This document shows positions 1 through 15,201 of a stretch of 32,785 nt of DNA, piece after piece. Positions within the stretch are counted from its first letter, which is position 1, and each line of letters opens with the position of its first letter. Location: the IMG/VR virus record IMGVR_UViG_3300010370_000134, positions 1-32,785 of that record; one strand, given 5' to 3'. Under the pieces are notes generated by a model. The model saw nothing but the letters and a program-made list of their open reading frames with translations, did no database searches and was not told the origin of the DNA. The translations under genes and the position numbers were made by a program. Source of the DNA: a virus.

Positions 1-296
1 TAGCAGGACTAGCAGCACCTCTTGTATTAGGTCAAGAGCCAACAACTATTGCAGCAACAGCAGCTGCAGGCCTTGCAATTAAGTCAGCTGGTTTTATCAA
101 AAGGCATCCAGCTGGTGTCGCACTTACTGCGGCTACATTTGCTAGCGGAGCAGCTATTGGCATGAACATTACTCCTTCTCCGGCTGCAGAAGGAAATATA
201 GAAGAGGTTATTCCGGCAAGACAGTCAGCAATTAGAAGACTAAACTATTCTACTGCAGGGTTAGTTCAGTCTATACATAATAATAGGAGGATGTAA
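1..296 (+). CDS. C-terminal end of an Ala-rich, probably membrane-active virion protein (5' end outside window)
   Basis: Only the last 97 codons are visible; the first full codon begins at position 3 and the TAA is at 294-296. The first 60 residues are rich in Ala, Gly, Val and Ile and contain two hydrophobic stretches separated by a short basic loop (IKRHP), which could be membrane-inserting helices. A polar tail follows, ending in a basic segment (NNRRM). Residues 73-93 (RQSAI...IHN) align without gaps to the C-terminal segment of the next gene product. The stop overlaps the next ATG by one base (TAATG), so the two are probably translationally coupled. No family is recognised. Hydrophobic Ala-rich tails are common in internal or ejected virion proteins, but that role is inference here. 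Confidence 0.75.
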   Translation, partial: AGLAAPLVLGQEPTTIAATAAAGLAIKSAGFIKRHPAGVALTAATFASGAAIGMNITPSPAAEGNIEEVIPARQSAIRRLNYSTAGLVQSIHNNRRM

Positions 297-916
297 TGGT
301 AAATGTAGAAAGCTTACTTAGCCCCAGCGGAGGTAGAGGTTACGAAGATACAGTAAACAGCGGCCTGTCAGGGTTAGTTTTAGGTCTTGGACTTAGCGAA
401 ACCCTATACGATAAATTTCTTGGGAAACCTGTAATGGAAGAATTCAGAAGTAGTACCCAACCTGGGTATAAAGCAAAAAGAAATAAACTACTTAAAAGTC
501 TAGAAGCATTAAATAAGAAATTAGAAACACTTTCAGACAATGACTATCCAACAGAAAACCCAGAGAAAGTTAGACGCGCAAGAGACAAAGTAAAGGAAGC
601 ACTAAAAAATCATAGAAAACAATACAAAGCCCAAAAATCAGCACTTAAGACAACTCTTGGAATAGATAAAAAATTTATTAAGGGTGCGTCCTGGATGACC
701 CTAGTGTCTTTTGGGCTAGATATAGCAATAGAAGGATTTACTCCCGGAGTCAGTAAAGTAGCAGCAAGAAATGATCAACGATCTATGGAATTCCAAAATC
801 CCCTAGATAGTCAAGCCTCATATACAATGAGGCAAAGAGCTGTAATGGCTATACATGATTCTATGATGAATGTTAAGAATGTCATAGGTAACGAAGCACA
901 ATTTATGCATCGGTAA
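296..916 (+). CDS. 206-aa protein of unknown function, candidate internal virion protein
   Basis: The ATG overlaps the preceding stop and follows an AGGAGG-like Shine-Dalgarno at 285-290. A Gly/Leu-rich stretch lies near residues 23-33. A long Lys/Arg/Glu-rich helical region (about 45-120) could form a coiled coil, and a hydrophobic segment at about 129-147 follows. The C-terminal 28 residues begin RQRAV and end EAQFMHR, and this part shares R-Q-x-A-(I/V)-xx-(L/I)-xx-S-xxx-(L/V)-xxx-I-x-N with the end of the preceding protein. I do not recognise a family. A shared C-terminal tag in two coupled genes next to the packaging genes would fit proteins sorted into the virion, but nothing in the sequence proves this. 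Confidence 0.8.
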   Translation: MVNVESLLSPSGGRGYEDTVNSGLSGLVLGLGLSETLYDKFLGKPVMEEFRSSTQPGYKAKRNKLLKSLEALNKKLETLSDNDYPTENPEKVRRARDKVKEALKNHRKQYKAQKSALKTTLGIDKKFIKGASWMTLVSFGLDIAIEGFTPGVSKVAARNDQRSMEFQNPLDSQASYTMRQRAVMAIHDSMMNVKNVIGNEAQFMHR

Positions 917-963
917 TTTATGAGACGTAAATTATAACAACCGTTGACCTTTAGATAATCCCG

Positions 964-1713
964 ATGCAAATAGAAAAACTAAAGATCCTAATATTTGATA
1001 TAGAGACTGCCCCTTCGCTCGGTTGGGTATGGGGCAAGTTTGATCAAGATGTAATAAGCTTTGATAGACACTGGTATATGTTATCATTTGCCGCAAAATG
1101 GCTAGATTCTAATAAAATTATTAGCTATGGCCTACCAGATTTTCCTGGCTATGAAAAGAATAGAGAAAATGATAAACATCTTGTCAAAAAGTTATGGGAA
1201 CTGTTAGACGAAGCTGATGTTGTTATAGCGCACAATGGGGATAAATTTGATATAAGAAAAGCTAATGCAAGATTTGTAGTACATGGGCTAAAACCTCCTA
1301 GTCCATATAAAACTATAGATACTCTTAAAATAGCTAGAAAGAATTTTGCTTTTGATAGTAATAGGCTAGACGATCTAGGAAAAGTTCTAGGCCTAGGAGA
1401 GAAGGTAAGCACCGGCGGATTTAAGCTATGGGAAGAATGCATGAGAGGAGATGAGAAAGCCTGGAATAAGATGAAAAAGTATAACAAGCAGGATGTACTC
1501 TTACTAGAAAAAGTTTACAAAGCATTAAGGCCTTGGTCTAAGTCTCATCCTAGGGTAACAGTAGACTCTGAAAATATTTGCCACTGTTGCGGATCTTCTA
1601 ATGTACAGCTTAGAGGATTTAATTATACAAAGTTTAACAAATTCCAGAGATTCATGTGTAAGGACTGCGGTTCCTGGACACAGGGTCATCCGCTAAAGCT
1701 ACAAGCAAGATAA
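964..1713 (+). CDS. DEDDy-type 3'-5' exonuclease (RNase H-like fold) with C-terminal zinc-ribbon-like cluster
   Basis: The 249-aa protein begins with the Exo I motif FDIET (D12, E14), has an Exo II motif HNGDKFD (N91, D96) and an Exo III motif YNKQD (Y173, D177). These are the ordered acidic residues of DEDDy exonucleases, which remove nucleotides from 3' ends using two metal ions. A Cys cluster follows, C206/C208/C209 and C232/C235, which looks like a zinc ribbon and may bind nucleic acid. There is no polymerase domain, so this is a stand-alone nuclease. It ends one base before the terminase gene, and this tight placement suggests a role around packaging, DNA-end processing or degradation, but the substrate is unknown. 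The start has only a weak Shine-Dalgarno; it is chosen because the Exo I strand begins within eight residues. Confidence 0.88.
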   Translation: MQIEKLKILIFDIETAPSLGWVWGKFDQDVISFDRHWYMLSFAAKWLDSNKIISYGLPDFPGYEKNRENDKHLVKKLWELLDEADVVIAHNGDKFDIRKANARFVVHGLKPPSPYKTIDTLKIARKNFAFDSNRLDDLGKVLGLGEKVSTGGFKLWEECMRGDEKAWNKMKKYNKQDVLLLEKVYKALRPWSKSHPRVTVDSENICHCCGSSNVQLRGFNYTKFNKFQRFMCKDCGSWTQGHPLKLQAR

Positions 1714-1714
1714 T

Positions 1715-3574
1715 ATGTCTGATATACAATATATTCCGGAAATAGATTATAAAGCAAATGGATTTACTCCTCTAAAAGATGCTCCCCCTGGAGATCTATG
1801 TAGTAACTGTATAACGTACTATGACATGTTGTACAAGAAAGGAGTAACAAAAAATCCTTTCCCCCCAAACTGCAAAAGACATATATCAAATGTAGCTGCT
1901 GCGCTTGACCCTAAAGATTTTAGGGACATAGACGAGTACGAGTTAGCTAAGATTATTACAGATCCTATAAGCTGGGCTTACGCTGAATTCGAGTGGGAAC
2001 CTAGATGGTATCAAGAAAGAATACTGTCATGTACATCCGATAAAAAGCTTATAAGAGGCGGTAGACGTGCAGGCAAGTCAGAGACAATGGTTATAGAGAT
2101 ATTGTTTGAATTATGCACAAATGACAATCATACCGTCCTAGTGATTGCCCCCAGCGAAAGACTGGTTAGCAGATTCTTTGATGAAATGAGGAAGTTTATA
2201 AAAAAGAGTCAGAATATAACAAACTCTATATCTAGATCTACAAAAGGTCCAAACCTTATAGAACTTAAGAATGGGTCAAAAGCGTTAGGTTTCTCTGCTG
2301 GACCGGCTAGCTCTAACGGTGCTGATAAGATCAGAGGCCAGGATGCTCACTTAATTATTATTGACGAGCTAGACTTTATTAAAGAAAAAGACATTGACGC
2401 CATCATGGCTATCTTAGCATCTCACCCAGAAGCTAGAGTTATAGCAGCTTCTACGCCACAAGGTTGGAGAAAGAAGTTCTATACTTATGTAGTAAACAAA
2501 GATATTGGATATAAAGAGTTTTGGTTTATTTCTGCAGAAAATCCTACGTGGACATCTCAGCAAGAGCAATACTTTAGGAACTCATATAATGAGGCTGCGT
2601 TTACTCACGAGTTTCTTGCAGACTTTGGAGATCTAGAGGATGGTGTATTCAAAAGAAAGCACATAGATAAGTCTATTCAAGATTATCAATATTCCGATGT
2701 ACCAGAACAAGGATATAAATATGTACTAGGTATAGACTGGAATAAGAGTGCTGGAACGCACATGGTAATAATGGGTTGGGATGGGAGTAAGCTGAAACTA
2801 GTCAATAAAATAGTTGTACCAGAATCTGAGTATATGCAGACTGAATCAGTAAATGAAATTATAAGATTACATACTATATGGAATTTTAAGCATATATTTG
2901 CAGATGCTGGATATGGCACTGCTCAAATAGAGATGATAAAAAGACATGGCCAAAGGAACCCATCAACCAGGTTGGCGGAAATAACTCAGGCCTTACATAT
3001 GAATCAGAATGTAGAAATTCTAGATCCAGTATCTGCAAAACCAGTAAAGAAGTTTGCAAAACAATTTATAGTACAGCAGACTGTAAAACTATTAGAAGAT
3101 GGAGCTATTATATTACCTAAGTCTGAAGACACAATGACTACTGTAGATGCCAAGCAGATGGGGCTTATACAGCAGATGAGAAACTACAGAGTAGAGAACT
3201 ACTCAATATATGGACTAGCAAGATTTAGTCAAGGTGAAGACCATACCCTGACGGCGTTTATGATTGCCTGTGCGTGCTTTGTTCTAGAAGAGGGAGATCT
3301 AAAAGAAGTTCAGTATTCTACTAGAATAATAGGAGTTCCTGTTACCAGCAACAATAATCCTCAGTACAGTCCTACTGAACTGGAAAGGCTAGAGGATGCC
3401 AAAAAATATAGACTAGAGATGACTACAGGAAAGGCTAATACAGGACCAAAACCAGCCGGAGTCAGGGACCTGGATGTATCGGCTAGAAAGCATGGCCACA
3501 TGTATGGGAGGTCTATGGGAAGTTCTGGTTCTACAAGAAATAACCTAGGTAGCCCTAGACGTAAGAGTTTCTGA
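1715..3574 (+). CDS. terL: Terminase large subunit (packaging ATPase-nuclease)
   Basis: The motor pumps phage DNA into the procapsid through the portal and cuts the concatemer. The N-terminal ATPase shows WYQ at 98-100 (adenine/Q motif), Walker A GGRRAGKS at 115-122, Walker B LIIIDE at 213-218 and a coupling motif ASTP at 245-248. The RNase H-like nuclease half starts with LGIDW near residue 340, continues with an acidic FADAGYG near 396, and has a late HTLTAF segment. At 619 aa it is somewhat longer than many terminases. The extra length includes an N-terminal C29-x2-C32 ... C53-x2-H56 cluster that could bind zinc, and a basic Ser/Gly-rich tail. The stop overlaps the next ATG (TGATG). No small terminase is recognisable in the window. 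Confidence 0.96.
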   Translation: MSDIQYIPEIDYKANGFTPLKDAPPGDLCSNCITYYDMLYKKGVTKNPFPPNCKRHISNVAAALDPKDFRDIDEYELAKIITDPISWAYAEFEWEPRWYQERILSCTSDKKLIRGGRRAGKSETMVIEILFELCTNDNHTVLVIAPSERLVSRFFDEMRKFIKKSQNITNSISRSTKGPNLIELKNGSKALGFSAGPASSNGADKIRGQDAHLIIIDELDFIKEKDIDAIMAILASHPEARVIAASTPQGWRKKFYTYVVNKDIGYKEFWFISAENPTWTSQQEQYFRNSYNEAAFTHEFLADFGDLEDGVFKRKHIDKSIQDYQYSDVPEQGYKYVLGIDWNKSAGTHMVIMGWDGSKLKLVNKIVVPESEYMQTESVNEIIRLHTIWNFKHIFADAGYGTAQIEMIKRHGQRNPSTRLAEITQALHMNQNVEILDPVSAKPVKKFAKQFIVQQTVKLLEDGAIILPKSEDTMTTVDAKQMGLIQQMRNYRVENYSIYGLARFSQGEDHTLTAFMIACACFVLEEGDLKEVQYSTRIIGVPVTSNNNPQYSPTELERLEDAKKYRLEMTTGKANTGPKPAGVRDLDVSARKHGHMYGRSMGSSGSTRNNLGSPRRKSF

Positions 3575-11706: not shown

Positions 11707-14700
11707 ATGAGTAAGATAATAAATATTTACAACAGTGTAAATTCAGGAAGAATGGCTATTGTTACGTGTGGACTCCATTTTGATAAAGGCGAGCTGACGT
11801 CAACTAATCAAATTTTAACTGAACTTGGTGCTATAGGCTATCCGCTTTACGGAGGAGTGCCGTACAGACAAAGAGTCAAGTGGGAGCCATTTGGCGTCAG
11901 GCACTCTGATAACTCAATCAGATATGCTAGAGTACAGTTTAGAACTGAGATAGATCCTAATAGCGAAAAATCCTGCACTGTTAGTGTCCATAACAGCGAC
12001 TATACTGGCTATAGAGTTTTTAACTTTGATAATGCTAATTATAATATATTCTCTCAGGTTGAATTTCAACTAAGAATAAATGGGCAGACAGCAGTAATTA
12101 GAGGATCTCAGCTAAGCAACATAGATACTACAGATGATGCTGGCTGCGTCAGAAGATATAAAATATTTACTAGACCATTTAGCTCAATGCCTTGGATATG
12201 GGTAGAGCTAGTTGTAGATATTCCAAACCCTGGAGCGGTGGACGCGCAGGGAAACACCTGGACAAGTGCTCCTATACGACATGCCGAATTTTGGCTAAGA
12301 CTTGGCTGTAGTTTTGCGCAAAGAGGCCTAGGTCAAACTTATGGACCATATAACGAAGCTCAAAGTAGATTCAATTTTTCCGAAGGAATAAATCTAGACA
12401 TAGTTGGATGCGACTCTGCATTTAGATTTGAGTCCTCAGAATTATACGGAAAAACTAACGTAGGCACAGGAACTACAAGAGCTCAAAGATATTTCTTGCA
12501 CGATCATACTAATGGGTATTTTAATGCTGGTCAGATGAAGATGGGGACCTCTAAGAACTGGAAAGGGGTATTACTTCTAGGGCCAGAGCACTGGATGTTT
12601 TATCCGGAAAGAACAAGTGAGATTTCTGCGGTCGCCAGAGGCTGGGGTCCACACATGCCTCCAGTTTTTGAGAACATAGATCCGCCACCTAATGTAGCAG
12701 CTCCAAGCGATCCCAATCACAGAACAGATTGGAAAACAAGAATAAATAATTTAATCAACTCCGCAGGTTTTGGTAACCTAGGCAGTAGACCTCACAATGC
12801 AACTCCGTATGGACCTAAGCCAGATATATCAGGACCTGGAGATCAGGGATTGTTCGGATGTGCTTATCATCATGCTCCACTATATCATATAATATTATCT
12901 GCGTATCCCCTAGAGTTACCTTATATAGTAAGGGCAATGAGACTAAACGGATTCAGACCAAACTTTATATACGAAGCAGATGGCAATAAATGGAGACTAG
13001 CTAATTATCCTGCCTCGTGGATATGGAATACTGAAATTTTTAATGGTAACGGAAATATAGGCGGAGCTAGCCCAGATTTTGCCGGTGTGTTATGGATGGG
13101 CTACGGAAGCCAGGCTCAAAAATCTAATGACGCTGGAGCCGTTAGAAATTGGGACAGTCCTGACAGACAACACTGCTCAATGCAATTATTTGCTGTCGCA
13201 GCTATTATGACAGCTGATTACTTTGCCCTTGAATTTTGTGATATGTATGCAGAGTTCATTGGAGCTGGAGTATCTGGAGTAATAGGTCAAGGAATTAGAA
13301 ATGACGTAACAAATGTTATAAATAGCTGGGAAGCAGATAGAGCCTCGGCTAGAGTCCTAGAGACTCTTATACCTATGTATTATGCTACTGATAATTCGGT
13401 AGCCCGTATCGGAATAATTAGAAGATACTGGGAAGGCTATCTAAAGCTAACTAGCTGGAGATTTGGTAGAGCTCCATCTATAGATAAACTAGAATTTATG
13501 GATTGTAAAAATTCATGGGCAGGATCTACCGTCTCATGGAACCCCCCTGTAGGGGTTGCTTGGCCTGCGGTGCAGAGCTCGTGGATGCCAGGTGACCTGT
13601 TTTCTCTCTATGCAGGAGAAACTCCATTTATGTATCCATGGCAATTATCGTTTGTTGCTTCTTCCTGGTTCTTAGTTTCTAAGATGTTTAAAGATTTATA
13701 TCCTAATGGTGCTTACATGACAATAGGAAATACTTTAGCACAATCTACGATTACACTACAAGATCCAGGTGGCAATAGAGCAATTATTTCCGAGTCAATT
13801 GCTAAAAACATAGCTAGAGATGTTGCTGCAACTGTTATTCTACACTGTACATGGAAATTTGGTCCAGGAGGAGCAAGTGTTAATATAGATGGGGACGGAG
13901 TAGGTAAAGAGTTATACTTTATATCTATGAATGTTACAAAAGGGCCAACTGACACACACGTTACCCAAGAAAGAGTTAACTATTGTTTCCCACTAGGTGG
14001 CATAATAAGAGGAGAAACATCTGGTACTCAAGCAAGAATATTAGTTGTCCAAGGAGCAGACCCATGGCAACTAAACCCAAACAATGGTGACTACAGAGAT
14101 ACACTTAATGGTAAACTATATTTAGAAAAAATTAGCGGTCCAGGATTCATAAATGATGGAAGCTACATATTAGAAAATTTAAACTCTATTACTAATAACT
14201 ACAGATCTACTGAGTATTACCAAAATGGATTTGGTGCATTCTTGAATGCTGGATGGTACGGTATGCCAAGTTACTGCGTAGACGCTGGCGGCACCTCTAA
14301 TGGCTCAGCCGGATTGGGAGCTAATTACAGAAAACCATTAACCTGGACACAGATGCTTGCTGTAGATAGCAGGAGAAGATGGAATGGATATACTTTAGGA
14401 GGATGGAACTATACTCAATTTTATAGGGACTATGGTATATGGCATGCGGCTGCTGTGACAATAGTATTAGATGGTCTAAAAAATAACTACTACACTACAG
14501 CTGATGCTGCAAGATTCCCAGTCTCTAGGCTCCAGGCAAAAGCGAATGTTATAAGAGATGACATGATTGCTCTCGCATCTAACTCTAGTAATATATGGGA
14601 CCTAACTATATGGCCATTCTTTGCGATTAAGGCAGATTGGAGAAATATAGGATATATAGATATTACCACTAATAATATATTTATAGCTAGGTCTATAGTT

Positions 14701-15201
14701 CCAGCTCCGTCGATTACTGCGCAAAGAATTGTAACAAATGTAAGAAATCCTCAAGAAGTAACCGGTAGAACGCAGATACCAACTGCAGTCTTAATAGTAG
14801 TAAATCCTATAAATGTGATTATTCCTGTCTTAGGCTCTATAAATGCAAGAGGATTCCCAAATAATCGGACTGACGATCTTGCGCCCAGGATAACTTTAGA
14901 CTTTGGTGCCCAAGCGGATGCTATATCTTCTAGTACTGATATCCCTGAGTCTGGAGTGCTGGCAGTCCGTGCCCCTAGTGGGCCTATTATAAATGTAGTA
15001 ATAAATCTATCTATGGACGCTCCAACTAGGATACCGCCTGTTACAGTTTTCCCAGAAATACTAGTTGCGCCTGAAGATTACCCATTACCGACAGAAGAGG
15101 AAAATCCATTCTACGATCCTATAGATCCTAGCACTGTGATACTTCCTAGAAGGATTATCTATAGCACTGTGTTTACTCCTGATATTGGCATACCATCATG
15201 A
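11707..15201 (+). CDS. 1164-aa virion-associated protein resembling alpha/alpha-toroid polysaccharide lyases (exo-rhamnogalacturonan-lyase-like)
   Basis: The N-terminal part is beta-rich, with a GVPYRQ...FGVRHSDNSIRYARVQF pattern near residues 45-75 that resembles the N-terminal barrel of PcRGLX/YetA-type rhamnogalacturonan lyases. The middle is helical and very rich in Trp, Tyr and His, as in carbohydrate-cleaving toroids. D486-R-Q-H489 followed by an Ala/Leu helix and a second helix ending FCDMYAE matches the 'QH..., ALE' repeat pattern of such toroids. Around residues 980-1164 a beta/Pro-rich tail could anchor it to the particle. Its place just after the capsid gene suggests a head-attached appendage that binds or cuts host or environmental glycans. 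Family assignment is from remembered patterns only, and substrate and catalytic residues are not settled. Confidence 0.5.
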   Translation: MSKIINIYNSVNSGRMAIVTCGLHFDKGELTSTNQILTELGAIGYPLYGGVPYRQRVKWEPFGVRHSDNSIRYARVQFRTEIDPNSEKSCTVSVHNSDYTGYRVFNFDNANYNIFSQVEFQLRINGQTAVIRGSQLSNIDTTDDAGCVRRYKIFTRPFSSMPWIWVELVVDIPNPGAVDAQGNTWTSAPIRHAEFWLRLGCSFAQRGLGQTYGPYNEAQSRFNFSEGINLDIVGCDSAFRFESSELYGKTNVGTGTTRAQRYFLHDHTNGYFNAGQMKMGTSKNWKGVLLLGPEHWMFYPERTSEISAVARGWGPHMPPVFENIDPPPNVAAPSDPNHRTDWKTRINNLINSAGFGNLGSRPHNATPYGPKPDISGPGDQGLFGCAYHHAPLYHIILSAYPLELPYIVRAMRLNGFRPNFIYEADGNKWRLANYPASWIWNTEIFNGNGNIGGASPDFAGVLWMGYGSQAQKSNDAGAVRNWDSPDRQHCSMQLFAVAAIMTADYFALEFCDMYAEFIGAGVSGVIGQGIRNDVTNVINSWEADRASARVLETLIPMYYATDNSVARIGIIRRYWEGYLKLTSWRFGRAPSIDKLEFMDCKNSWAGSTVSWNPPVGVAWPAVQSSWMPGDLFSLYAGETPFMYPWQLSFVASSWFLVSKMFKDLYPNGAYMTIGNTLAQSTITLQDPGGNRAIISESIAKNIARDVAATVILHCTWKFGPGGASVNIDGDGVGKELYFISMNVTKGPTDTHVTQERVNYCFPLGGIIRGETSGTQARILVVQGADPWQLNPNNGDYRDTLNGKLYLEKISGPGFINDGSYILENLNSITNNYRSTEYYQNGFGAFLNAGWYGMPSYCVDAGGTSNGSAGLGANYRKPLTWTQMLAVDSRRRWNGYTLGGWNYTQFYRDYGIWHAAAVTIVLDGLKNNYYTTADAARFPVSRLQAKANVIRDDMIALASNSSNIWDLTIWPFFAIKADWRNIGYIDITTNNIFIARSIVPAPSITAQRIVTNVRNPQEVTGRTQIPTAVLIVVNPINVIIPVLGSINARGFPNNRTDDLAPRITLDFGAQADAISSSTDIPESGVLAVRAPSGPIINVVINLSMDAPTRIPPVTVFPEILVAPEDYPLPTEEENPFYDPIDPSTVILPRRIIYSTVFTPDIGIPS

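Follow-up and report, generated by a model that had tools for sequence, protein, structure and literature searches.

The left end of the 32.8-kb virus record analysed here in full (the window) raises the question of whether two adjacent reading frames end in one common C-terminal tail, and of what the ends of such proteins do. ORF A (3..296, + strand) is cut at its 5' end by the window, leaving 97 residues visible, and ORF B (296..916, + strand) encodes 206 aa, which the ORF list and an AlphaFold2 model present as a helical body with a conserved C-terminal tail. Both genes lie just upstream of the large terminase gene, and from their stop/start overlap we conclude that they are translationally coupled. 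Between B and the terminase lies a DnaQ-like 3'-5' exonuclease gene (964..1713, + strand; phrog_403, E 4e-93), which occurs there in the window group only and is without the tail; the terminase large subunit (1715..3574, + strand; phrog_2, E 1.5e-38) is the usual downstream neighbour of B in the synteny table. Portal and further structural genes complete the gene content. Neither the Rfam scan of positions 1-3000 nor the tRNA scan over the window returned anything.

The large terminase matches those of Moorella phage MTATph1, Bacillus phage KLEB27-3 and Acinetobacter phage ME3 (TerL E 2e-69, 2e-50 and 1e-43), and a 1430-aa large tail protein also matches proteins of these three phages (E down to 3e-16). 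On the basis of these two homologies, we assign the window to the MTATph1/KLEB27-3/ME3 (0305phi8-36-like) lineage of large contractile-tailed phages; the ME3 terminase is annotated as similar to that of 0305phi8-36. Directly after its major capsid gene the window encodes a protein of 1164 aa (11707-15201), and at that position the three isolates encode a far smaller protein (at most 528 aa).

The original prediction held that A and B share an ungapped C-terminal motif, between 219-284 (RQSAIRRLNYSTAGLVQSIHNN) and 830-892 (RQRAVMAIHDSMMNVKNVIGN). Letters and coordinates are correct, and the ungapped match of 21-22 residues with 6 identities is present. It is, however, no better than that of shuffled tails: its best ungapped BLOSUM62 score of 21 is equalled by 18-25% of them (p 0.18-0.25), the identities give p 0.09-0.20, and in a comparison of the full proteins another segment outscores it. 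Across 20 genomes with both genes, the median p for A-B tail similarity was 0.53, with 1 of the 20 below 0.05, and just the window and L004, a close relative, showed the predicted register. The R-Q-x-A-I half is not kept among A relatives (ARQSAI in the window, ARESAT in L004, NQRSTV in L010, EGIDDK in MTATph1), whereas M-R-Q-x-A-V is nearly invariant in B. Since the alignment does not exceed that of shuffled tails, the claim of a common tail fails; we regard the resemblance as chance, and a motif common to A and B cannot be shown from these sequences. Each tail is strongly conserved by itself, and the two are distinct.

The tail of A belongs to a family of its own. The 20 A proteins end in a core resembling TLGASGDLVFGLHNxR, with the motif G-x-L-V-F-x-L-H-N-x-R-x-G, and upstream of this core they all carry an acidic-glycine element (AEG or DG). 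In the family alignment, the window carries the upstream element as AAEGN (183..197, + strand), resembling AAAEGV in L071 and DADGV in the Bacillota relatives, and the core as LNYSTAGLVQSIHNN (240..284, + strand); the full-length relative in L004 has 427 aa and the same tail. Bacillota-type genomes arrange the genes as T1 - C - A - B - terminase; the C-terminal sequence of T1 is GxIVFDLFNxRTGHHKMGNAKF. None of 200 column-shuffled controls scored as high as the T1 and A tail profiles, the two tails within single genomes are mostly in the same register, and the family pattern G-x-[IL]-V-F-x-[LM]-x-N-x-R-x-G is found at the C terminus. Searches of whole records gave two matches per record, T1 and A, in most Bacillota-type records. 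Other phages have the gene for U in front of B. U proteins comprise 1000-1300 aa and contain an SNase domain (PF00565), to which several members add a match to DnaQ-like exonucleases; the U tail, ...FNSPIGHHRM, matches that of T1 with 0 of 150 controls as high. By these profile comparisons, a C-terminal motif is common to T1 and A, and to U and T1, within this cluster.

Other genes of the cluster have features of their own. The U proteins directly upstream of B (L005:5262-9143, L024:1827-4862 and L012:2334-5564) also carry a ...TDFGSGWQG-like motif, which was seen in an L073 protein as well. The product of C, between T1 and A (L046:4533-5438 and equivalents), has its own recurring end, VSKQAxxILNNRQ..., for which no similarity to the A, B and T1 tails was detected. 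Upstream of T1/A lies a gene for a Cys-rich protein of 230-290 aa (MCKGxxCPxxxxCPL...RCPLE; L046:2447-3175, L004:7638-8501), which is conserved across the lineage, has no PHROGs match and is a possible candidate for the small terminase.

The B tail is a C-terminal module of 29-39 residues, TMRQRAVxAIHxSxLNARSALGxEAxxMH, present in the window as NPLDSQASYTMRQRAVMAIHDSMMNVKNVIGNEAQFMHR (797..913, + strand), with M, R, N, G and E invariant among 16 diverse tails. Profile search found it in 28 viral contigs and then in 22 further loci. Further carriers are the isolates MTATph1, KLEB27-3 and ME3, two phage-plasmids of 220-240 kb (pAD3 of Bacillus velezensis and pN497-ZHONG of Cytobacillus oceanisediminis), one 9.9-kb plasmid and two bacterial chromosomes. 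It always lies 0-15 residues from the C terminus, and each of 16 whole records has one strong copy, except G013 with two identical ones; G011 adds a weak second. While all 253 tail pairs were significant, only 50 of the 253 body pairs were detectably related, and identity between B proteins was 57% in the tails against 18% in the bodies. Bodies of the window group have nothing detectable in common with other B bodies, the body clusters are unrelated, and the proteins range from about 115 to 546 aa. Sequence comparison thus indicates that the B tail is kept nearly constant while the body in front of it changes completely.

An AlphaFold2 model built on 23 sequences predicts a single C-terminal helix at residues 173-205 of B (812..910, + strand; block pLDDT 78-88). 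The model is poor overall (pLDDT 65, pTM 0.34), with the tail as its best-predicted part, and that of a Bacillota-type B was unusable (pLDDT 52). The B tail is probably helical, as had been suggested, but the amphipathic character attributed to this helix was not borne out, as its hydrophobic moment does not rise above that of shuffled sequences. Nor did the suggestion of a cleavage tag gain support. The invariant G-x-E of the tail fits neither the L/I-x-E nor the A-x-E protease motif, and a check for G-x-E-A sites in six proteins encoded near the portal and major capsid genes of the window gave a single match, in a putative protease/scaffold protein.

Two alternatives bear on how these ends should be read. 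That the A and B tails are one motif that has since diverged seems to us highly improbable. Weak profile signals point that way (12 of 200 column-shuffled controls as high for A-B, with the best local alignment in another register, and 7 of 150 for U-B), as does a V-x-x-I-[HQ]-x-[SN]-like stretch in both tails; pooling T1, A and U against B gave 10 of 300 controls as high, in an inconsistent register with the U rows one column off, and is not counted as evidence. Against it stand the lack of conservation of the predicted register, the median p over the 20 genomes and the T1-B comparison, in which 123 of 200 shuffles scored as high, that is, no signal. The other alternative concerns A alone, whose last residues (RRM) likely also encode the ribosome-binding site and coupled start of B: a codon listing of 21 A genes places AGGAGG, the likely Shine-Dalgarno sequence of B coding for RR of ...NNRRM, and then ATG TAATG with the stop/start overlap at 285..298 (+ strand). 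The final two or three residues of A, doubling as this site, therefore need no protein-level explanation. It is nevertheless very unlikely that conservation of the A end as a whole is a by-product of the embedded site. RRM/RKG codons do spell AGGAGG, AAAGGGG and similar sequences, and the terminal KG is absent where the site follows the stop (L055, L058 and L068), but this accounts for the last 2-3 residues only; those genomes still largely preserve the core LVFGLHNxR, and T1 has the same core, yet its site lies after the stop. One of these loci, L068, shares a 170,948-base contig with L069, which contains two oppositely oriented A-B regions whose tails are identical; the cause is a large inverted duplication or else an artefact of assembly.

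With two separate tail families established, the pattern of the B tail on otherwise unlike proteins in related genomes is the one expected of a sorting or assembly tag. The general idea of such a tag gains from the recurrence of the B tail in relatives and from the motif common to T1/A and T1/U; a single tag on both A and B does not stand. We tentatively propose, at slightly less than even probability, that the tails are tags for docking or packaging, carried by virion-assembly or internal proteins, since they combine a conserved tail, an exchangeable body, a fixed place among head genes and, in one tail family, nuclease domains. Each tail would bind a conserved head-assembly partner (portal, core/scaffold or capsid protein), variable cargo such as Gly-rich bodies or nucleases might thereby be built into the head, and this cargo could perhaps be ejected with the DNA; both virion location and partner are inferred here. 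In KLEB27-3, A, B, T1 and U are annotated as hypothetical, and genes further on as structural protein. Points against docking are the hydrophobic moment at chance level and three orphan B genes with an intact tail and no phage head genes nearby (L048:5642-6601, L049:5620-6626 and L050:5983-6523).

Alternatively, the B tail could be no tag but the functional end of its protein. One such reading, which we consider unlikely, makes the tails the working end during infection, as part of a DNA-delivery conduit or in contact with host membrane or DNA. Helical, membrane-active ejection proteins are known from other phages, and the bodies here are rich in Gly, which makes up about 13% in many members, and contain dispersed hydrophobic stretches; few of them, however, reach transmembrane-level hydrophobicity, and a tail that stays constant while its body is replaced fits docking better. 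Small terminase genes usually sit directly 5' of the large terminase gene, and the near-invariant position of B there could make B (and A) part of the DNA-packaging machine, as a factor that resembles a small terminase or loads the terminase, which the tail would contact. Of 49 loci, 45 indeed have a terminase gene no more than 4.4 kb downstream of B; in many it comes next, and in some accessory genes or homing-endonuclease (LAGLIDADG) reading frames intervene. This assignment is still rather improbable: searches of Pfam, PHROGs and NCBIfam gave no helix-turn-helix or small-terminase family match for B relatives, the additional B of G011, at 117 kb, is remote from the terminase gene, and the orphan B genes occur without a terminase. 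On a 204,633-base contig (L023:9203-10111, L073:5067-6418), a regular A and a divergent B lie near the terminase. The other B on this contig, at ~117 kb and amid different genes, is the more typical of the two and a paralogue unlinked to the terminase.

The orphans occur in two contexts. On plasmid pAciIRM and in Lederbergia panacisoli, B stands between a helix-turn-helix (HTH) gene and a small ORF of 73-76 aa, similar between the cassettes; in Bacillus safensis, B and a small ORF lie beside a type III R-M-like pair. Because the HTH - small ORF pair exists without B on B. subtilis plasmid pNIB353_5 (L075), B seems to have been inserted into a pre-existing pair. A speculative extension of the docking proposal, to which we give little credence, is that a widespread phage lineage uses the B tail as a portable C-terminal signal for virion packaging, and that plasmids and chromosomes captured whole B genes to enter or poison its virions. 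Candidates for such capture are a restriction-modification plasmid and two chromosomes of Bacillaceae; in two of these three cases B sits in a regulator-B-small ORF cassette.

No significant family in Pfam, PHROGs or NCBIfam covers A, B or T1, and a PDB sequence search with both tail profiles gave no match. At the least, the tails define protein families beyond these three collections, encoded next to the terminase gene in many genomes of large phages and useful for annotating them. Should the tails prove to label proteins for the virion, they would single out the cargo among the unannotated proteins of these phages, nuclease fusions included, and would offer a C-terminal means of loading foreign proteins into the heads of large phages.

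Terminal tags on phage head proteins are a known kind of element; the C-terminal families found here seem to have no annotation so far. The precedent is phage T4, in which a short conserved tag targets internal proteins while their bodies diverge (PMC9026906). Like the capsid-targeting sequence (CTS) of T4 IPI-III, the tails are short conserved terminal segments on otherwise diverging small proteins, a pattern that holds for the B tail in particular. The CTS brings cargo into the head, a role that is only proposed for the tails here; it is N-terminal, comprises 10-19 residues and is removed by gp21 after E, whereas the tails are C-terminal and span about 20-35 residues. The ejection-protein propeptides of the giant phages SPN3US and phiKZ are comparable in that several head proteins of a large phage are thought to be targeted by a terminal segment. 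They differ in being N-terminal, often longer than 100 residues and cleaved at A-x-E; the invariant G-x-E of the B tail is unlike both this site and the T4 motif. A further parallel is the 0305phi8-36/BtI1 lineage, related to these phages according to the ME3 terminase annotation and likewise containing an SNase-bearing protein. The excerpted text of the paper on these phages (PMC2147016) makes no mention of tails of this kind; it proposes that paralogue domains anchor enzymes to the virion, and it describes an SNase domain on the hub protein of BtI1, which shows that nuclease domains do occur on virion proteins of this lineage.
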